A stretch of DNA of 42,472 nt, taken from the NCBI GenBank assembly GCA_002863065.1, contig PKDL01000144.1, positions 1 through 42,472 on the forward strand, given 5' to 3'. A program made the position numbers and the translations under genes. Positions 1,428-42,472 of this stretch are shown in pieces. The stretch is from Pseudomonadota bacterium (lineage in GTDB: Bacteria > Myxococcota_A > UBA9042 > GCA-2863065). Positions within the stretch are counted from its first letter, which is position 1. Each line of letters opens with the position of its first letter. Below the pieces are notes generated by a model. That model did not search any database. It was given only the letters and a program-made list of their open reading frames with translations, and was not told where the DNA came from.

Positions 1428-2894
1428 TTAGAAGCTGTAGCCCAGCGCTAGCTCTCCATTGAAAGGAAAGTTGACGACGGTGTTTTCGCTCAGGGGAACA
1501 ATATAGGCTGATGTTGAGGTGCGGACCGTCAGGTAGATATGCTTCGAGACGAAAAACTGCACTCCGAAGGCACCATGGACGCCCATCGTCACTTCTCCGG
1601 TCCCGAGATCAGTAAAGTTGGAATCGGCACACCGCGAGTCCCCCTTACCGGCAAATTTACACCACGGATCAGTGGTGGTTACGTAAGAACCTAGAAAATG
1701 TACGTCGAAGCCGAATCGCACATATACCCTCCACCAATGGCCCCTGAAGGCGTAACTGAGTCCCAGACTTGTGCGGACCGATGTGAAGCTATCTAAGAGG
1801 TCCCTGTCAGCATCCAGGGTCGATGTGAAGAGGTTCACTTGGGCAAATACGCCCAGTCCACGGAGAAATTGATACTCTGCCGAGATGCCCATCCCCAAGT
1901 TATGAAAGGGGCGCCTCGTAGTGAACTGACCATAGATGCTGTAGGCGAACCCAGTATCAATAAAGAACCGATTTTGGGGTAATGACGGAGTCGCGCTGGC
2001 GACTGGCTCACCCGTAGGTAGGCAGGTGAGCCATGCTGAAATAAATCGGTCGAGCCGCTCTTTGCTATTGGCCATTTCTTCTGAATCGAGTGTGCTCTCG
2101 AATCGAGCGGTTGCAACTTCACGGTCAAATATTGATATCCGTACGTGTACGTCTTGACCTTCGCGTTCAATGTACGGAAGTAGAACCGTTTCCGCACCGA
2201 TGTCGTCTTGAAATTGTCGCAACCGCGTCTTCACACCGACACGATTTTCTCTACGGAGGCTACTCGTGCGAAAATCGGAAAGGCCATCTTCCAAGAGCTC
2301 TTCGAATGCTGGTGGATAAAAGTCTTTTGTTAATTTTTGAAAGGGATCCAAGAAGAACATCTCTGCGAGCTCTCGACTCGCTTGACTACGTTCTTCTGTC
2401 ATCAGCTCGGTATCGGGTCCTGTACGTTCGGAGCGTGCATGGGCGAGGATGAGGAGCAAGTCCGCCATATCCTCAGGCTCAATCACGTCATAATAGCTCT
2501 CGCGGTAGGTCTTGAGCGACTTTTCCAACGAGCGAACAGCGCGTCTTAAATCGCCTTTCTCGTAATACCGTTCTCCCTCCAGGCGTAGGCGTTTCGCTTC
2601 ACGTATTTTTCCTGCGTGCAGTTGCTTGAGCCGCTTAGTGAAATCCGTTCTTGCAACAAGACGCAGCTGAGGCTCAACCTGAAGTCGGGTGAGAAGGTAC
2701 TGCTCTAATTTGCTTGCTGGGTCATTTTCTAGGACCGTCGCTTCCCAAAGGCTGGAACGCAAATACGTACTAACAGGCAATACTGCGATGCACTTTATGC
2801 CGGGCTCATCGCATATATCCGGCTCCGCTGCTGCAGCGGCATGAGCCGCACACATGGCAATACCAATGACAAGATATAGTCGCTGACGCTTCAC
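1428..2894 (-). CDS. Secreted protein with TPR-like N-terminal half and C-terminal outer-membrane beta-barrel-like region
   Basis: 488 aa; signal peptide-like MKRQRLYLVIGIAMCAAHAAAAAEP; alternating aromatic C-terminus ending in ELALGYSF. Confidence 0.7.
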   Translation of the reverse strand: MKRQRLYLVIGIAMCAAHAAAAAEPDICDEPGIKCIAVLPVSTYLRSSLWEATVLENDPASKLEQYLLTRLQVEPQLRLVARTDFTKRLKQLHAGKIREAKRLRLEGERYYEKGDLRRAVRSLEKSLKTYRESYYDVIEPEDMADLLLILAHARSERTGPDTELMTEERSQASRELAEMFFLDPFQKLTKDFYPPAFEELLEDGLSDFRTSSLRRENRVGVKTRLRQFQDDIGAETVLLPYIEREGQDVHVRISIFDREVATARFESTLDSEEMANSKERLDRFISAWLTCLPTGEPVASATPSLPQNRFFIDTGFAYSIYGQFTTRRPFHNLGMGISAEYQFLRGLGVFAQVNLFTSTLDADRDLLDSFTSVRTSLGLSYAFRGHWWRVYVRFGFDVHFLGSYVTTTDPWCKFAGKGDSRCADSNFTDLGTGEVTMGVHGAFGVQFFVSKHIYLTVRTSTSAYIVPLSENTVVNFPFNGELALGYSF

Positions 2895-3460
2895 GGCGTA
2901 TCAGTGCACTCGTCGCAGGCTTTGTCGGACACGGTCAGCTGCGACTCTTCGCTCAGTCTCACCATGGCAAAGTCGACGCTCATTGCCTCGGTGTCCGTGC
3001 TTGAATTGCCGCAGCCCGTACCCCCCCGCTTCTCATAGTCGTTTGTGCTGATAGTCCATACGAGTCGGTCATCTGTGTCTCGAACAATTTCCGCCATATG
3101 CGTGCAGCCATTGCAATCGAGAAAGTTGAATCGAAAGACATCGTCACCTCGATATGCTCCACGTATTGAGCGGCAACTACAGCCCTCGACCTCGCAGGTT
3201 GCGGGAGATACTCGGTTTTCGTCCCGATATAGCCGCAGTACGCCGACGACATCTTGGCCATAATGTCCCAGATTCATTTCAATAAAGAGTTCACAATTCT
3301 CGGTCTTACAGCCAAGAATTTGCGCTAGAGCGGCTGCATCGCCAGTGTTTTCTTGTAGAGTGAGTTCGTCACTGAACCACTTCCCTGACAGGAAACTGTC
3401 TGGGTCATGGCATCCGCTCAGAGTGGCGAGCCCCCACACAATCACGAGGAACCGAGTCAT
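2891..3460 (-). CDS. Putative lipoprotein, unknown function
   Basis: 189 aa; signal plus lipobox-like MTRFLVIVWGLATLSGC; Cys-rich; 4-bp overlap with the next gene. Confidence 0.75.
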   Translation of the reverse strand: MTRFLVIVWGLATLSGCHDPDSFLSGKWFSDELTLQENTGDAAALAQILGCKTENCELFIEMNLGHYGQDVVGVLRLYRDENRVSPATCEVEGCSCRSIRGAYRGDDVFRFNFLDCNGCTHMAEIVRDTDDRLVWTISTNDYEKRGGTGCGNSSTDTEAMSVDFAMVRLSEESQLTVSDKACDECTDTP

Positions 3461-4110
3461 TACTCACCTGCGCGGATCTGAGATTCTGAAAATACTTCTG
3501 CCGTAAATACGTACACAAAGCAGTCATCATCCTGATAGGCATCCTCAGGTAGCCCAGCTTTCACGCAAGTTTGGCGCAGGAATTGTTCACGGTCCCACTC
3601 CATTTGCGTCGCTACTTGAGGAAGTAACACGCCACGACTACGTCCTCGCACGATAAAAAGGCCGTGCACACCAAGTTCTACCTGTTCTGGGTAGGCTCCC
3701 TTTAGCGGGCTCACAACACTGAGTTCGATATCGGTGTGTGGGAGGTCTTGGACGGCCAGTCTTGGGAAACCGGATTCTTCGGACGCCGCTCGGATCGACA
3801 AATCAACGACTGTATTTATGAGCGGACCGTCGCCGTCAAACGTACCGACGCAGCCACGGTCGGTTCCACGTGTCGTCAGCGTAATAAATACGCCCTGTTT
3901 TTCCTCTAATCGAGAGTCATCTGTTTCGGGTTGTAGCTCTCGACCCCGGTGGATGGAGTTAAAAATTGCCTGCCTCGCAACCTGAAGCAGTACGATTTTC
4001 TGTTCCCGATTCAACGGCTGGATGTTCGACATGGCGCGCCCCGTACTTCCCTTCAGATCAATCATTTCCGAAGACGGGTCACTCTCGCAGCCACACCGCG
4101 CCGCTGTCAA
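3460..4110 (-). CDS. AMMECR1-domain protein (AmmeMemoRadiSam system protein A-like)
   Basis: 216 aa with the AMMECR1 pattern: GVFITLTTRGTDRGCVGTFDGDGPL...IELSVVSPLKG...GLFIVRGRSRGVLLPQVATQMEWDREQFLRQTCVKAGLPEDAY. Start could be internal (MSNIQPL...). Confidence 0.85.
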   Translation of the reverse strand: MTAARCGCESDPSSEMIDLKGSTGRAMSNIQPLNREQKIVLLQVARQAIFNSIHRGRELQPETDDSRLEEKQGVFITLTTRGTDRGCVGTFDGDGPLINTVVDLSIRAASEESGFPRLAVQDLPHTDIELSVVSPLKGAYPEQVELGVHGLFIVRGRSRGVLLPQVATQMEWDREQFLRQTCVKAGLPEDAYQDDDCFVYVFTAEVFSESQIRAGE

Positions 4111-4361
4111 ACCGGTGCGTTAGCGAGTACCAGTGTATCCTGTCGAGAGTAATGATGGCGAAGGCGCAGTTCCCATTGCTTGGAGTTCTCTGCACTCTGG
4201 GCAACATGAAAATCATACCGCCCGAACCACCGGATTCGAAGCAATTCTGCAGTCCGTTTCAGTGCTGCGCAGTCACCATGTTGGCCAACTGTTATCCAGG
4301 AATCATCGCCTGTAGACTTCGGTCCCGGAGGGGGAGCTGTGCATGCTATCTCGTCATCCAA
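4107..4361 (-). CDS. Small hypothetical protein at the head of the AMMECR1 operon; start uncertain
   Basis: 84 aa ORF from TTG; overlaps the AMMECR1 start by 4 bp, as do the other junctions in this operon; no ATG start in frame. Confidence 0.4.
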   Translation of the reverse strand: MDDEIACTAPPPGPKSTGDDSWITVGQHGDCAALKRTAELLRIRWFGRYDFHVAQSAENSKQWELRLRHHYSRQDTLVLANAPV

Positions 4362-5424: not shown

Positions 5425-6179
5425 TGAAGCTCAGTATTATTATTCCGTGTTACAATGAAGAAACGACCGTCGAGGAAATTGTCGCCGTGGTAAAAGCTAC
5501 TCCGTACGACAAGGAAATTATCATTGTCGACGATGGCTCTACTGACGATACACGAGAAGTACTGAAGCAGTACGAGCATGATCCCGTGGTCAAGGTGTAT
5601 CTTCAACCACAAAATATGGGTAAGGGTGCGGCTCTACGGCGAGGATTTTCTGAAGCAATTGGGGATGTCGTCATTATCCAGGACGCTGACCTTGAGTATA
5701 CTCCGGACGACTACCCCAAGTTACTAGCGCCCATCGAGGCGGGACGTGCGGATGTTGTTTATGGGTCACGGTTCCAGGGAGGCGCGGGACGCGTGCTCTA
5801 TTATCGACACACGATGGGTAATAAATTCCTGACCTTCTTATCGAATCTGGCCACCGACCTGAATCTTACGGACATGGAAACCTGCTACAAAGTCTTCAAG
5901 CGCGAAGTCATCCAAAATATCGTGCTGGAGTCGGACCGCTTTGGTTTTGAGCCCGAGGTGACTGCCAAACTTGCAAAGATGAGAGATGTGGTGGTCTACG
6001 AAGTACCGATTAGCTATCACGGGCGTACCTATGAAGAAGGTAAAAAGATCACCTGGCGCGACGGCGTATCAGCCCTCTGGTGTATTTTTAAGTACAATTC
6101 GAACGTTGCGGGCGCGAAGTACTTTCGTCGAGACAGCTCTCAATTGAAGTCGCTAGTTGCCAATCAGGACCGACAATAA
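5424..6179 (+). CDS. Family 2 glycosyltransferase (DPM1/GtrB-like)
   Basis: [20 protein letters not shown]...[17 protein letters not shown]...[27 protein letters not shown]...VVYGSRF. Confidence 0.93.
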
Positions 6180-6191
6180 CTTCGCCTCACC

Positions 6192-7640
6192 TTACAATTT
6201 TATTAGCTGATAGCGGTCCACTCCGTCGATGACCTCTGTTTCTACTTCGCCTCTCAAGTCGTCGATTAGCTCTGAGATGTTGCTAGTAGGTGTGCTTGGT
6301 ACGACAATAAACTGACTTTCATACAACGGTTTGATTTGGATATCGGGGCGAAGAATTTGTCGCGCCACCAATGACGCTACTAGCTCGCGATAATCGCTGT
6401 TCTGCTCTAGTACATGTAACGTGGCAGATGGCGGTAGACTCTCATTTAGCTGTCCAATGAATTCCGCCGGCAAAGACTGGTCACCAGGTAGTTGCCATTT
6501 CCCGAGCTGACGTGGTCCTGACGTGCTGCGCATCGGTAGAAGGCTCAAACTGCCGCTCAGTGCGAACATGAATACGACGGCAACCAGTATTCGGATAGCT
6601 GTATTACGTTGTGCCCGAATATATCGGCCTACGCGAACCATACCGATTCCAGCGAAGAAGATGATTGGCGGCGTGAGACATACCATTCCTGAGTATCGCA
6701 GTCCCCAGGGTCCGCCGTTGATTGCGACTAGGGTGACAAGTGCAAAAGACAAAATGACAGTTCCACGGCGTACTGGATGGTCGGTACGGGTGTACGCCTT
6801 CGCTTGAGCGAATGCCATTATGGTCCAGAGCAGTGGGAATGCGGCGGCGGATAAGGCGAGTCCAGTTACAATGCCAGGCGTACGGGCTAGTCCCGAGACG
6901 AGCAGTACTCCATCAGCTCGGATATTTGGGTATGGGACGCGCATAGGGTGGCCGATGGCGGTTGTCAGTAACGCACCTAGTTCCATTGGGTCGTGAGGCC
7001 AAAGGGCGATGGCTATGAGCGGGGCGAGAATAAGCGCCAGCAGTGTTCTTATATGAACCGGTCGGAGTTCCACGACGCTGGAAGCCGTATTCCGTACTGT
7101 ACGATGGCGGTGTATTTCCAGCACGAACCAGGCTATCCAGATGATAGCGCCATATGACCAAGTGAGTATCGTCACTATCAGAGCAGAAGTCGTCATCCAG
7201 GCACCCAAGATCGTACCTGAGTCGACCGTATTGACGAGAAAGAGCAAACATATCGAGAAAAATATAAATGCCTCAGGACCAGGTCTCCCAGCCAAGCCCC
7301 ATGTAACCGGGAGCGTCAACGTCACTACGGCTGCCATGAGTGCTGCCGAGCGCCCTGCAAGGCGCCAAGTCGTGGCTAAAACGAGCATTATTCCCAAAGA
7401 GGTCGCTAAGCCCGCCGCAAACGACAGCGCCAATGATGCATCTTCAAATATCAGCCTACCTAGCGAAGTCCATAGTGCTTGCCCGGGCATCAGGCCATCC
7501 CGCATTGCTGCACTTAGGTCGGGTTGAAGTAGCGATTGTGCAGCGACTCGTTCGACATCTAATGGAAAGAGCCAGCCGACGATAGAGGGCATAAGGCAAC
7601 AGACCGTCAGCGTCACGGTCGGGAAAAGACGTCGAGTCAA
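6192..7640 (-). CDS. Polytopic membrane protein, GT-C/PMT (GT39-like) glycosyltransferase candidate
   Basis: 482 aa with many hydrophobic helices; adjacent to GT2 genes. Confidence 0.6.
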   Translation of the reverse strand: MTRRLFPTVTLTVCCLMPSIVGWLFPLDVERVAAQSLLQPDLSAAMRDGLMPGQALWTSLGRLIFEDASLALSFAAGLATSLGIMLVLATTWRLAGRSAALMAAVVTLTLPVTWGLAGRPGPEAFIFFSICLLFLVNTVDSGTILGAWMTTSALIVTILTWSYGAIIWIAWFVLEIHRHRTVRNTASSVVELRPVHIRTLLALILAPLIAIALWPHDPMELGALLTTAIGHPMRVPYPNIRADGVLLVSGLARTPGIVTGLALSAAAFPLLWTIMAFAQAKAYTRTDHPVRRGTVILSFALVTLVAINGGPWGLRYSGMVCLTPPIIFFAGIGMVRVGRYIRAQRNTAIRILVAVVFMFALSGSLSLLPMRSTSGPRQLGKWQLPGDQSLPAEFIGQLNESLPPSATLHVLEQNSDYRELVASLVARQILRPDIQIKPLYESQFIVVPSTPTSNISELIDDLRGEVETEVIDGVDRYQLIKL

Positions 7641-8248
7641 AGCGTCTCTCCGTGCGAGGAAGCGCTCAACTTGTCAACGGTGAGTTGGAAGCACACATGA
7701 CGCCACGCCGGATTTGGTGTGGTGAGCTCAATTGAGATATTCATCGGTCCAAGACTCGCACGAGGTGCTTTGATATCGAAGGTATGCCAGCCACGATACT
7801 CATCCGTCATCCGAACATTCCAGACTCGATTGCCATTTATCTTGAGTGTTGCCGAGATATGCGCTCCGTTGCGGGCGGAATCTAGTAATCCGATGTATCC
7901 AGACACTCGAGAGGCAGCAGATACTTTACGGTAGGTGATTTGGTTCGCCCCTCCTTGGCGCGGATGAATCCAAGTACACACACGCTTATCGCTTACTCCC
8001 TCTGACTGCACACTTCCGATGTATGCGCCGGCCCATTCCCAAGGGCGCTCTCCACATTGATAGCGTGTACCGACCCAGGCTGAGCAACGCTTACCTCCGC
8101 TCAGGATGCTAGCGTTCGGAAGCCCCGTTGTTGCAGTCCATTCGGGTTGCGCTTTTGAGAGTGGCGGTCTTGGCGGAACTGTTAGCACATACCACTGCAT
8201 AGCGCCGACAAGCGTTACAGCAATCAAGACCGGACCAACCGTTTGCAT
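7637..8248 (-). CDS. Membrane-anchored extracytoplasmic protein, unknown
   Basis: 203 aa; N-terminal TM helix; 4-bp overlap with the downstream GT-C-like gene; beta-rich C-terminus. Confidence 0.6.
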   Translation of the reverse strand: MQTVGPVLIAVTLVGAMQWYVLTVPPRPPLSKAQPEWTATTGLPNASILSGGKRCSAWVGTRYQCGERPWEWAGAYIGSVQSEGVSDKRVCTWIHPRQGGANQITYRKVSAASRVSGYIGLLDSARNGAHISATLKINGNRVWNVRMTDEYRGWHTFDIKAPRASLGPMNISIELTTPNPAWRHVCFQLTVDKLSASSHGETL

Positions 8249-8978: not shown

Positions 8979-11537
8979 ATGACCAAGCGGATGTTAATCT
9001 CGGTCGATGAGGAAGAAAGCCGGGTTGCAATTATCGACTCTCGGCGACTCGAAAATTTAGAAATTGAAGCCAAAGGCGGTGAAGGCCGCCGCGGAAATAT
9101 CTACAAAGGGGTGGTTCATAAAGTAGAGCCTAGCCTTCAAGCGGCATTCATTGACTTCGGGGAAGAAAAACAGGGGTTCCTGCCACTTTCAGAGGTGCAT
9201 CGCCGTTTGTGGCCAAAAGGTATTACTGACAAACGACCAGACATCAGCTTGCTTCTCAAGGAAAAGCAGGAGCTGATGGTGCAGGTTGTGAAGGACGAAA
9301 TCGGTACGAAGGGTGCGACCCTTACTACCTTCGTGTCGTTGCCGTCGCGTTACCTCATCCTCATGCCTGAGAGCGACAAATCGGGCATCAGCCGGCGTCT
9401 CGGCGATACTGAACGCCGCCGACTCAAGGAAGTCATAGCTGCTATTAGTGTGCCTGATGGCTTTGGGGTCATTATTCGAACTGCGGGTCAGCAGCAGCGT
9501 CCGATGGAGCTAAAAAAAGATCTGCTGTATCTGACGAAACTTTATGAGTCGATTGAGTCCAACTTCTCTCGTCGGCAGGGTGCTGGTCTCATTTACAAAG
9601 ACCGGTCTCACGCTGTGCGATTCATTCGGGATTATTTTACGGATGATGTTGATGAGATCTGGTGCAACAACCGTAGCACGCTCAAAGAGATAGGTGACTT
9701 CATGAGTGTTCTCATGCCGGTCGCGCGTCAGACCTTGCGCCTATACGAGGGCACTGCACCACTCTTTGTAAAATTCGCAGTGGAAGACCAGGTTGAAAGC
9801 GTGTTTGCTCGCGAGGTGCCGTTACCAAACGGTGGATCGATCGTGATCGATCAAACCGAGGCGCTCGTTGCGGTTGATGTCAACTCAGGAAAGGTCAAGG
9901 GACAAGATATTGAGGAAACCGCCCTCAAAACTAACCTTGAAGCAGCACATGAAGTGGCCCGCCAGGTGAAAATTCGCGACATGGGTGGATTGATAGTGGT
10001 GGACTTCATCGACATGCGTGAACGAAAGAATGTTCGCCACGTCGAGACTGAGTTGCGGAAAGCTTTCACGGACGACAAGTCGAAAATCAAATTCGGCCGA
10101 ATCAGCCAATTTGGCTTGATGGAGCTTTCGCGACAGCGCCTTCGAAAAAGTTTGATGACCCAGATCACTCGGCGTTGTGAAGCCTGCGATGGCACTGGAC
10201 AAGTACGAGCGCCCGCATCTGCCGGTCTATCCTTGTTACGTCGTATCGAGGAAGCATGTCTGCGTGGGAACGTGAAGTATATTCGCGCGACAACATCGGT
10301 AGGAATAGCAAACCTTCTGCTCAACCGTCGTCGCGGCGAGCTGAGCGCAGTTGAGCAAAAGATGGGAACAATCGTAGAGGTTGTAGGCCACAAAGACATG
10401 CCAGCAAACTTGGTAGCTCTTGATGTGGTCGTACTGCGGGGTGGCCGCTCTGCGCCACAGCGCATATATCAGCTTCTGGACTTGATTCGGAATAAAGTCA
10501 TCCGGAAGGATACGAGCCCGCTACCCCGACCGGAAGAAGGCCTCGAGAAGCTAGAGCTAGACCACGGTGCTATCTATCGCATGATTGCCGCACGTGATGA
10601 AGAGATGGCGAAAGCAGAGGAGCTTTCGACGGACTTCGAATTTTCGCCTCAGGAACCGGACTTGGAATCGGATGAAGCATCTGAAGAGTCAGACGCTACT
10701 AATAAGCGGCGTAGGCGTCGCCGCCGGCGTCGAAAAAAGTCAGACGCCGACTATGGAGATGGTGGCGACAGTCAAGTGTCCGTGAGGGGGGCTGATGCTG
10801 GCGATGATAATGATGCGGCCACCGATGATGAGGACGGCGACTCTGAACATGAGCTATCTCCTGAAGAAAAAGAGGAGATGGCGCGCCAAGACGAGCGCCG
10901 ACGAGGTGGCTTTGTCGGTTGGATGAAGCGGATCTTTGGTGGTGAGGGTGACGATGCGCAGCCGGACTACACCGACGTCTCTGATGCTGCTATTGGCGCA
11001 ATAGAGCCTCCTGCGACTTCATCGGACGACAGCGATGTCGCAAGTACTGAGGTGGAATCCGTATCAACAAAGGCGTCAGCTGAGGAGGGTACACCGTCGG
11101 AAGACTCATCGGCGAATAGCGGGGAGGAACAGGTTGATGGAGAAAAGCGCCGTCGCCGTCGCCGTCGTCGTCGCCGTAAGCCAGCGGGCCCGAAAACTTC
11201 CGCTGACACCGATGCAGACAATGCATCGGATACTGACATCGCAGCAGCAGACTCTGCTGAGGCGAGCTCAGTCGAAGACAATGTTCGGAGGCCAGCGGAA
11301 GGTAAATCAACGGATGCTGCGCAAGAATCGAAGGCAGCTCGCCCGCGACGTAAACCACGTCGTACGCCGAAGTCGAGGGCTGTCAAACCCGCAGAATCGG
11401 AGGCAGATGCGTTGGCTCGTGACGCTGCGCGGGCAGTAGCTGCGTTGGAGTCGGCCGCAAGCGCATCGGGGAAAAGTCAACCGTCTGAACCGGCTGCCGC
11501 CGAACCACCTCCGATCCCGACAGACTCAGAGGGGTAG
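8979..11537 (+). CDS. rne/rng: Ribonuclease E/G family protein with long acidic, Arg-tract C-terminal tail
   Basis: MTKRMLISVDEEESRVAIID...GNIYKGVVHKVEPSLQAAFIDFGEEKQGFLPLSEV (S1); VAVDVNSGK; CEACDGTGQVR (Zn-link-like). Confidence 0.95.
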   Translation: MTKRMLISVDEEESRVAIIDSRRLENLEIEAKGGEGRRGNIYKGVVHKVEPSLQAAFIDFGEEKQGFLPLSEVHRRLWPKGITDKRPDISLLLKEKQELMVQVVKDEIGTKGATLTTFVSLPSRYLILMPESDKSGISRRLGDTERRRLKEVIAAISVPDGFGVIIRTAGQQQRPMELKKDLLYLTKLYESIESNFSRRQGAGLIYKDRSHAVRFIRDYFTDDVDEIWCNNRSTLKEIGDFMSVLMPVARQTLRLYEGTAPLFVKFAVEDQVESVFAREVPLPNGGSIVIDQTEALVAVDVNSGKVKGQDIEETALKTNLEAAHEVARQVKIRDMGGLIVVDFIDMRERKNVRHVETELRKAFTDDKSKIKFGRISQFGLMELSRQRLRKSLMTQITRRCEACDGTGQVRAPASAGLSLLRRIEEACLRGNVKYIRATTSVGIANLLLNRRRGELSAVEQKMGTIVEVVGHKDMPANLVALDVVVLRGGRSAPQRIYQLLDLIRNKVIRKDTSPLPRPEEGLEKLELDHGAIYRMIAARDEEMAKAEELSTDFEFSPQEPDLESDEASEESDATNKRRRRRRRRRKKSDADYGDGGDSQVSVRGADAGDDNDAATDDEDGDSEHELSPEEKEEMARQDERRRGGFVGWMKRIFGGEGDDAQPDYTDVSDAAIGAIEPPATSSDDSDVASTEVESVSTKASAEEGTPSEDSSANSGEEQVDGEKRRRRRRRRRRKPAGPKTSADTDADNASDTDIAAADSAEASSVEDNVRRPAEGKSTDAAQESKAARPRRKPRRTPKSRAVKPAESEADALARDAARAVAALESAASASGKSQPSEPAAAEPPPIPTDSEG

Positions 11538-39062: not shown

Positions 39063-39500
39063 TCAGAATGTGAAGGTTTCTTCGCGCAAGTGACGCTTTT
39101 TCAGGAAGCCCTTCTCTCTCTGTTCCTGCTCTTCTTTGCACATAATACAGAGCGTGGCCTCGGGACGCGCAAAGAGCCGCCGTTTTGAGATGATGGAACC
39201 ACATGATTCGCACTCATCGTACTCACCGTCTTCAATCCGGCGGAGTGCTTTGTCGATCTTACCCAAGAGATACTTGTCACGGTCTCGAAGCCGATTCTCG
39301 AAGGCCGCTTCATACTCTAGCGTTGCGAGGTCCACCTCATCGGGCGTTTTTGCCGTTGACGCCGCTAGGTTTTTACGCGCCTCTTCCGTGGCGCCAAGCA
39401 GGGTCGCGCGCTTGTCTTGGAGCAGTACTTTGAACTCCTCCAGTTCCTCCGGTGTGAGCGGAGCGTTTTCTTCGGCGCGCTCAGGTCGTTTTCGAGCCAT
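39063..39500 (-). CDS. DksA/TraR family C4 zinc-finger protein
   Basis: 145 aa; coiled-coil N-terminus; CESCGSIISKRRLFARPEATLCIMC. Confidence 0.9.
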   Translation of the reverse strand: MARKRPERAEENAPLTPEELEEFKVLLQDKRATLLGATEEARKNLAASTAKTPDEVDLATLEYEAAFENRLRDRDKYLLGKIDKALRRIEDGEYDECESCGSIISKRRLFARPEATLCIMCKEEQEQREKGFLKKRHLREETFTF

Positions 39501-40584: not shown

Positions 40585-41406
40585 ATGATCGCAGTTAATT
40601 TCGTCGCGAGTAAACTTCGTTTTGGATTACTTATTTTTATGTCATGCCTAGTCGCTGCACCGGCCGTGCTTGCCGAAACACCATCATCAGAGACGATGCT
40701 TATTCAAGATGAGGAACGTCATCCGCGACGTTATAGAGTAGTACGTCGTCGACGCGTGGTTACCGTGAGAACTCCTCCTGCTAGGCGTGTACGCCCGGTA
40801 GCATTCGTTGCGCAAAGCGATACGGGGCCAACACCGTTATTGGGTGTCGGTATTCGTATAAGCGGGATTGCGCTTGATGGTGAGAAGTTGAGTCTGGACG
40901 ACTTCGAGAATCCCGTCATGGGTGGAGTTGGCGTGCACTTTAGGACCAAGCTGACACGTCGCTGGGGGCTCGAGCTTAGCTTTGATTATCTCCGCCGAGA
41001 TGGTGACCAATCACGATACGTACAGGAGACGATGCCGCTGATGCTCAGTGGTATGTTCCATGTATTTCCCGACAGTCCTATTGATTTATATGCACTCGCC
41101 GGCGTGGGCGTCCACTTCACAAATTTATCATATGCAGAAGGTCTCTTTGAACATCATGCGTTGGAATTTGCCGGGCAGCTTGGTGCAGGTGTACAGGTTC
41201 GCTTTGGGGACCACTTTGCTATTTACGCTGACGTGCGCTTTGTAACTGTCTACAAAAACCTAGGGTCTGTTGATCGGGTGGCTAACGACTGCCTATCGAG
41301 TCGTGCAGGCGCTACAGGGTTTTGTGGAGGTCTCAACAATCTAGACCCGACAGATAAATGGAACATTGGGGCGCAGTTTCAAGCGGGTGCTACCTATTAC
41401 TTCTAG
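40585..41406 (+). CDS. Outer-membrane beta-barrel protein (OmpA/Omp_b-brl-like)
   Basis: 273 aa; signal peptide LLIFMSCLVAAPAVLAE; Arg-rich linker RRYRVVRRRRVVTVRTPPARR; C-terminus QFQAGATYYF. Confidence 0.8.
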   Translation: MIAVNFVASKLRFGLLIFMSCLVAAPAVLAETPSSETMLIQDEERHPRRYRVVRRRRVVTVRTPPARRVRPVAFVAQSDTGPTPLLGVGIRISGIALDGEKLSLDDFENPVMGGVGVHFRTKLTRRWGLELSFDYLRRDGDQSRYVQETMPLMLSGMFHVFPDSPIDLYALAGVGVHFTNLSYAEGLFEHHALEFAGQLGAGVQVRFGDHFAIYADVRFVTVYKNLGSVDRVANDCLSSRAGATGFCGGLNNLDPTDKWNIGAQFQAGATYYF

Positions 41407-41703
41407 GGTGCGATGTCGCGCCATGAAAGCGAATGCGGCACGCAACCATCCCGCGCAGATGGGCAATCTGGGCGCTGGTATTCGCTCGGATACGCGCGCT
41501 GGTAATTATGTATATAGTGATCTATCCGGTTGGCGATTCTGGTGAGTTTTGCGTTGGCGACAGCTACTCAGAGGCCGTTCGAATCTTTCATTTCTTCATT
41601 GTACGCTGTGGCATATCGCGGTGCGCATTTTTACGATCGGAAACTGTGGCAAGCCACTGCGGGGTGTACACAAGCTAGACACCCGCCGAAGTGCTGTTCA
41701 ATT

Positions 41704-41720
41704 AATGAACGATGTTCATT
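41704..41720. promoter_or_regulatory. Operator-like palindrome
   Basis: AATGAAC-GAT-GTTCATT, perfect 7-bp arms with a 3-bp spacer in non-coding DNA. Confidence 0.4.
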
Positions 41721-41853
41721 TTTCATCACATTCACAAGGACTTAGGCTTTTGTTCTCACCGCTTGTGCACAGGATGTGGACAAAAAAAAAGAAAGTGCAC
41801 ACAGATACGACAGGTGCGGTATCAAATGATTTCAATGGGTTATGTTTTGGCAC

Positions 41854-42472
41854 GGTCCATGTAAAGGGAAGTGGCCGAGCGCTGCAACGGCAGCCGGCGA
41901 GCGGACTAGCTCGCCTAACGCAGATTTTTCTGCTGACAAGCGAGTATCTAGTGAAAAAACGCTGCAAGGCGACATTCAACTAGATCAAATAGTCCAGGAA
42001 TCGACGAAGGGCGCTAGGTCTGAGAAGACAGTAGCTCTAGACACAATGACAAACCCTGAGGTCCAATCGCGACTAAGACGCCCGCACGCGGAGACGCTGC
42101 GGTTGAGTTGGTCGGAGAAAAAGGGCGAGAGTGGTGGTTAGGAGACTAACCTAATTATGCTCTGTAAACCTTCGTCGGAGCACGGCGCTCAAGGCGCTCG
42201 CGCTGTTGAAATACACAGTGCACGCGACTGAGTGACGTGTTTGTCTCAGAGAGCAGGCCGCAACCGTAAGGATACGGGCTGTGAATCTGAGAAATCCCAT
42301 GAGTGGGAGCGGTCTGAAAAACGACCGCATAGGCGGCACAGAAACCCCGCGAGGGTGTGAGAAACACCGAGGCGGGTGCCTTCGAGACTGGTAATCTCGA
42401 AGCGAGTCCAGCGCAAGCGAGACAGACTGTGCCGATGCACGACGCGCCAACGAGCTTGCCTCGAAGGCGACG
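41854..42472 (+). ncRNA. Candidate large structured non-coding RNA, truncated at window end
   Basis: At least 14 perfect or near-perfect helices read by eye, including GNRA-capped hairpins on the + strand (GGTTAG-GAGA-CTAACC 42136-42151; GTCT-GAGA-AGAC 42018-42029) and long-range pairings CTCAGA/TCTGAG (42245/42286) and CGGCACAG/CTGTGCCG (42334/42427). No convincing ORF. Confidence 0.65.

Follow-up and report, generated by a model that had tools for sequence, protein, structure and literature searches.

Introduction

To our knowledge, few bacterial RNAs longer than 500 nt with an elaborate conserved structure are known. Those large ornate RNAs have turned out to be cages or membrane ribonucleoproteins of unknown function. 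GOLLD, which phages and prophages carry, often close to tRNA islands, is a giant non-coding RNA with an elaborate fold; its function is unknown, and many members exceed 800 nt (PMC12286853). ROOL is a large ornate RNA of unknown function (PMC12286853). OLE, with a length of ~600 nt, is a large ornate non-coding RNA encoded on the chromosomes of Gram-positive extremophiles; it is membrane-associated, has known protein partners, and acts as a ribonucleoprotein in stress adaptation (PMC9723947, PMC10898510). The raiA motif, or ModT RNA, is a structured RNA that occurs widely in bacteria and adopts a conserved tertiary fold of its own (PMC11706538).

Here, we analyzed a stretch of 42,472 nt, hereafter the window, which is contig C4 of a 5.4-Mb genome (G000), probably of Myxococcota judging from its named relatives, and ends inside an RNA. 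This RNA is longer than 500 nt, has extensive conserved structure, and contains no ORF, and thus fits the description of a large ornate non-coding RNA. A preliminary description of the same DNA had proposed that the + strand encodes a large, structured RNA without coding content, and covariation in independent alignments agreed with this proposal.

Results

A large structured RNA at the end of the window

We analyzed the folding of the 599 nt from the predicted transcription start to the window end (41874–42472). The fold energy was −256 kcal/mol, compared with a mean of −204.7 (sd 7.2) for 100 dinucleotide shuffles, none of which was as low, resulting in a strongly negative z-score of −7.18. 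In 200-nt sliding windows on the + strand, z ranged from −2.3 to −5.3 across 41800–42500, while just upstream of 41800 it was ~0 to −1.7. The z-score, an overlap with another contig end, and a homologue at the same locus of a related genome supported the assignment of 41874–42472 (~599 nt) as the 5′ part of a giant structured non-coding RNA on the + strand. No conserved protein was evident in this region, as judged from ORF lengths together with strand and motif evidence, in line with the earlier remark that it lacks credible coding content.

All 14 stem arms listed in the preliminary description were found in place, and two of the stems needed reinterpretation. The first stem (41854–41876) was present, but its 5′ arm is probably promoter and not RNA because it overlaps a sigma-54-like −24/−12 element (41847–41863). 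The TCCCA-TGAG-TGGGA stem (42295–42308) was likewise present, but it competes with the family consensus structure, which places the same bases on the 3′ side of an internal-loop module.

Promoter and upstream region

The sigma-54-like element TTGGCACGGTCCATGTA (41847–41863, + strand) reads GG-N10-GT. In the BLAST alignment, it matched in position a better site, TGGCACGGGGCCTGC, of a homologous locus (L010) in G001, a genome of the same family as the window genome. The G001 homologues carry near-consensus −24/−12 elements, whereas the −12 of the window is imperfect, with T in place of C (GT, not GC). Sequence reading revealed an inverted repeat, GTTCAATTAATGAAC (41696–41710), which precedes the −24 element by ~140 bp and is a candidate site for an enhancer-binding protein (upstream activator), and similar GTTCA-N5-TGAAC repeats were observed upstream of the L010 homologue. 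The gene upstream of the RNA (40585–41406, + strand) encodes an outer-membrane beta-barrel protein (Pfam PF13505). It is syntenic in G001, where its orthologue (52% identical) lies directly upstream of the G001 RNA.

Several other features were observed around these promoters. A gene for an FHA-domain sigma-54 enhancer-binding protein (PF00158 and PF00498; 35461–36981, − strand) is located ~5 kb from the sigma-54-like promoter of the RNA, and its product is a possible regulator of the RNA; genes of this kind are numerous in Myxococcota. A DksA-type protein gene (39063–39500, − strand) also lies near the RNA. The segment 29109–35366 (+ strand) encodes a 2085-aa protein with six stretches of the Cu-binding_MopE motif, and the MopE motif also adjoins the L106 homologue. 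Furthermore, L075 of G082 contains the sigma-54-like promoter of an unrelated protein gene (~2971–3018, − strand). A AATGATTTCAAT block upstream of the −24 element is common to this promoter and the RNA promoters of the window genome and G001, which suggests a shared activator or IHF-type site. L075 was rejected as an RNA homologue, as the promoter region alone was in common and it precedes a different gene.

Homologues and distribution

The G001 homologue at L010 is an RNA of ~1 kb, located directly downstream of the same outer-membrane gene as in the window. The BLAST anchors between the two comprised the promoter (41822–41893), the core (42278–42396), and then the 3′ domain; the window segment 42278–42396 matched a homologue by BLASTN, independently of any covariance model, with an E-value of 2e-9. 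Another contig of G001 carries a paralogue, L068, with 73% identity across 1.02 kb, and similar core segments were found in G049, G051, G241, and G260. When the first 673 nt were compared with 53 relatives by BLASTN, the window genome itself was the only match. A 35-nt match in G041 (L007/L009) fell within coding sequence and was discarded as chance.

The RNA family is widespread in Myxococcota and Planctomycetota, with more than 100 genomes in the two phyla. This distribution was obtained with a 148-position covariance model of the core (R1) and a refined model (R2). Matches below ~25 bits were counted as noise because the control, 247 genomes of the high-GC phylum Actinomycetota, reached 23.7 bits and gave no match above this value. 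R1 matched 77 of 379 Myxococcota genomes at E ≤ 0.01 and 68 at E ≤ 1e-5; genomes often contained several copies, with a maximum of six in G055. R2 matched 32 of 343 Planctomycetota genomes and gave one clear case (63.6 bits) in 289 genomes of a Verrucomicrobiota-type phylum. Most genomes recovered in an exact-pattern scan of named genomes were Myxococcota/'Deltaproteobacteria' MAGs, Kofleriaceae among them; the scan also recovered five Planctomycetota MAGs, which the model confirmed at 68–94 bits. Exact-pattern matches in Caulobacter, Algoriphagus, Pedobacter, Streptomyces, and others received no confirmation from the model and were regarded as chance; four of these genomes that were rechecked gave no match.

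Conserved core and covariation

The conserved family core was located at 42270–42412 (+ strand), where R1 scored 115.6 bits (E 7.6e-33), the window sequence itself being part of R1. Core helix 3 is the hairpin GCGGTC-TGAAAAAC-GACCGC (42309–42328, + strand) with the family loop UGAAAC; in 59 sequences, 100% of its cells were paired and 5/5 pairs showed two-sided changes. Core helices 4 and 5, nested in CCCCGCGAGGGTGTGAGAAACACCGAGGCGGG (42345–42376, + strand) with the conserved loop UGAGAAA, were 100% and 95.6% paired in the same 59 sequences, both with two-sided changes. In core helix 6, CTTCGAG-ACTGGTAAT-CTCGAAG (42380–42402, + strand), 95% of cells were paired and two-sided changes occurred in 6/6 pairs. 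Covariation thus supports these stems of the 3′ part. Near-invariant nucleotides were observed in loops and internal loops of the family, and the hairpin loops UGAAAC and UGAGAAA bear a resemblance to T-loops.

In the core alignments of 51 and 59 model-aligned sequences, 92% of cells were paired, and covariation was 0.64 and 0.62, respectively, versus 0.18 in shuffled and ≤0.10 in slid controls. Because these alignments were fitted to the model, MAFFT alignments were taken as the independent test, and covariation among the homologues was again strong. A plain MAFFT alignment of seven core sequences yielded 26 pairs with RNAalifold, 14 of them with two-sided compensatory changes. When 18 full-length copies (~1 kb) were aligned with MAFFT without structure, RNAalifold predicted 258 pairs; 84.8% of cells were paired, compared with 70.3% in shuffled and ~40% in slid alignments, and two-sided changes were found in 190 pairs against a shuffle maximum of 132.

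The orientation read earlier from the sequence was borne out as well. The RNAalifold energy of the 18-copy alignment was −396 for sense and −288 for antisense, and the recurrent module CUCUGAAGGG...AACCCCAUGAGAGG occurred 66 times in sense, 0 times in antisense, and 2.2 times in shuffles. A structure derived from Kofleriaceae-type copies only was then applied to held-out Planctomycetota copies. It scored 62.7% at full length (58.4% shuffled) and 80.4% in the core plus 3′ half (74.2% shuffled). Thus, the transfer was weak over the full length and clear in the core and 3′ half, indicating that the 5′ domain differs between the phyla.

Gene anatomy and neighbours

A near-consensus sigma-54 −24/−12 element, defined as a match of at least 14.5/16 upstream of the core, was found in 30/68 copies. 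When 1.1 kb of upstream sequence was scanned in a comparable way, such sites were found in 27/68 copies in sense and 1/68 in antisense. The predicted sigma-54 control is not universal, because a near-consensus site was absent from over half of the copies, among them those of Planctomycetota and those of most relatives in the class to which the window belongs. An intrinsic terminator followed the core in 19 of the 30 sigma-54-site loci, and the predicted promoter-to-terminator transcripts were 959–997 nt (11 loci), 1.5–1.7 kb (5 loci), and 2.66–2.71 kb (3 loci).

The gene downstream of the RNA had the same orientation in 35 cases and the opposite one in 29. RNA neighbours differed between lineages, and among the neighbours examined no partner gene recurred across lineages. 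The random orientation together with the lack of a recurrent partner indicates that the RNA is most likely free-standing and trans-acting, and the random orientation together with the differing neighbours makes it unlikely that the RNA is a leader acting in cis or a guide RNA linked to a gene. The outer-membrane gene, which is present in 14 genomes of the window's class, was rejected as an obligatory neighbour; its link with the RNA is local to the window's family because the RNA cores of G005 and G010 are on other contigs.

Some neighbours are worth recording by lineage. In L116, a glutamine synthetase gene (2728–4143, + strand) lies directly upstream of a copy with its own sigma-54 site, which is suggestive of nitrogen control in that lineage. 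In the Planctomycetota loci L153, L156, L165, and L177, a divergent amidase-like gene lies on one side of the RNA and a PTS EIIA-like gene on the other; MoxR-like and VWA-like genes follow at a greater distance (families judged by eye). This synteny was kept in most of five copies.

Continuation beyond the window

The preliminary description had the RNA running off the window end, and no end was indeed found near 42472. The last 123 bases of the window (42350–42472) mark the assembly break point: their single other exact occurrence in the genome is at the very end of contig C152, whose minus strand therefore carries the sequence onward. The RNA continuation extends there (L003) from ~11269 to 8192, adding ~3.1 kb of non-coding sequence up to a predicted terminator, a perfect 9-bp hairpin followed by a T-run (CAGCACCGC-ACAC-GCGGTGCTG-TTTTT; ~8218 to 8192, minus strand). 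The C4–C152 junction is supported by 3′-domain elements of this RNA family, which are correctly ordered and oriented in the continuation. The distance from the predicted start to this terminator is ~3.68 kb, and most relatives have an RNA of ~1 kb. Given the exact overlap and the continuation to a terminator, the transcript in the window genome is probably ~3.7 kb long, a figure that depends on the 123-nt contig join and on a single transcript across a tandem duplication.

A second, diverged core was detected in C152 at 8982–9133 with 27 bits, and the 3′-domain elements occur twice, at virtual coordinates 43238–43612 and 44802–45048 (window numbering extended into C152). The RNA unit seems to be tandemly duplicated in the window genome, and this apparent duplication accounts for the extra length of its RNA. 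Inspection by eye revealed neither a promoter nor a terminator between the units, which makes a single RNA of 3.7 kb likelier than two genes. At another locus, L188, two full-strength cores are arranged in tandem (6055–6200 and 7814–7960), 1.76 kb apart.

Search for known RNA classes

At the gathering threshold, Rfam identified tRNA elsewhere in the window and gave no match to the RNA region. With permissive thresholds, Rfam 15 gave no match in the C152 continuation, and the window part and six homologous loci gave only chance-level matches to unrelated sRNA families. Among the classes that had been named for exclusion, GOLLD, ROOL, OLE, HEARO/omega-RNA, and group II introns were all without an Rfam match. 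The neighbours examined contained neither of the associated genes suggested earlier, IscB/HNH or group II RT. Pfam identified no IscB/HNH gene in the window, in C152, or near several homologues, and no group II intron domain V (Rfam) or RT gene was found in the window part, C152, the homologues, or the scanned neighbours. The loci examined lie among chromosomal genes; one exact family pattern had 0 matches in viral contigs, and BLASTN of one copy had no match in phage records. The open-access journal papers searched, which included work on GOLLD, ROOL, OLE, and raiA/ModT and genome-wide discovery studies, contained no description of such a Myxococcota/Planctomycetota RNA family. Having neither an Rfam match nor a description that we could find, the RNA family is apparently new.

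Discussion

The family has a conserved secondary structure on a defined strand, an established membership and distribution, frequent promoter-like (sigma-54-type) and terminator-like ends, and no fixed partner gene. We propose, with a probability of roughly 0.6, that the RNA is a free-standing giant non-coding RNA of a conserved family that acts in trans as a structural scaffold. Sigma-54 together with an enhancer-binding protein would drive transcription from a start near 41874, so that the RNA would be produced in response to a particular nutrient, stress, or developmental signal. The transcript would end at the hairpin and T-run ~3.7 kb downstream. Repeated internal-loop modules (CUC-UGAA-GGG ... 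AACCC-CAN-GAG) and T-loop-like hairpins may then fold it into a compact particle. From the analogy with GOLLD, ROOL, and OLE, we infer that this particle would act in trans as a scaffold, in the form of either a homo-oligomer or a ribonucleoprotein. Catalysis or the binding of protein or RNA would fit equally well, and the scaffold, regulatory-sponge, and ribozyme readings are inseparable by sequence alone. Somewhat better than even, in our estimate, are the odds that the family constitutes a new class of giant (1 to ~3.7 kb), sigma-54-controlled, trans-acting structured RNAs in Myxococcota and Planctomycetota, with several paralogues per genome, which would form a large RNA-based particle or catalyst.

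The strongest competitor, which we hold to be possible but clearly less probable than a scaffold, is a trans-acting regulatory RNA that belongs to the sigma-54 regulon. As a very large analogue of 6S, CsrB, or ModT, it would pair with a protein or mRNA or keep it sequestered. The internal-loop modules would then be many copies of one binding site, in keeping with the strand-specific recurrence of the module, with the presence of several copies in many genomes, and with sigma-54 promoters, which suggest condition-dependent expression. However, sponge RNAs such as CsrB consist of a simple repeated hairpin and evolve fast, whereas the architecture of this family is conserved over its whole length, across 1 kb.

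It is unlikely that the RNA is a large ribozyme, whether self-cleaving, self-splicing, or trans-acting, in place of a scaffold. Neither a ribozyme nor an intron was matched in Rfam, no maturase, RT, or homing-endonuclease gene recurred, and free-standing, terminator-bounded genes are ill-suited to an intron, although the size, the near-invariant loop nucleotides, and the T-loop-like hairpins do resemble large ribozymes, e.g., RNase P.

A cis-acting role on the neighbouring genes, as a long 5′ leader or 3′ UTR of the riboswitch or attenuator type, would explain why the copies of the window genome and G001 are both downstream of the same outer-membrane gene and why five Planctomycetota copies have neighbours in common. 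We nevertheless consider it very improbable, since the downstream orientation is random, the neighbours vary by lineage, many copies have their own terminator, and in many a dedicated promoter separates the RNA from the gene upstream. Finally, the reading that there is no RNA, but chance stems, a decayed gene, or an artefact of the assembly break at which the window stops, can practically be dismissed in view of the covariation across independent alignments, the homologues in more than 100 genomes of two phyla, and the null result in the high-GC control phylum.

If the proposed class of giant RNAs is real, it would be among the longest structured bacterial RNAs outside ribosomal RNA. The family would be a new entry among the few large structured RNAs known, with lengths of 1 to ~3.7 kb, an occurrence in two phyla with complex life cycles, and sigma-54 as the likely regulator class. 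With a ready-made covariance model, tests by RNA-seq, Grad-seq, and cryo-EM are feasible at once.

In comparison with known systems, the family is, similarly to GOLLD, giant, elaborately folded, and non-coding, but it often has a sigma-54 promoter, reaches at least 2.7 kb, and had no match in viral contigs for one exact pattern, in phage records for one BLASTN query, or to the GOLLD family in Rfam. ROOL differs in its hosts and in being unmatched in Rfam by our family, most copies of which are longer than ROOL. As with OLE, the RNA is large, chromosomal, and ornate; in contrast to OLE, it has no recurrent linked partner gene, and no Rfam match connects the two. The raiA motif/ModT RNA shares with it the character of a widespread structured bacterial RNA, but is found in other phyla, is much smaller, and is not matched through Rfam. 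The family could titrate a partner, as 6S and CsrB do, and CsrB has repeated binding modules; however, RNAs of the 6S/CsrB type are far smaller, lack a kilobase-long conserved architecture, and gave no Rfam match to the family. By homology, the RNA is a member of none of these classes, and its behaviour places it nearest to the large ornate RNAs.
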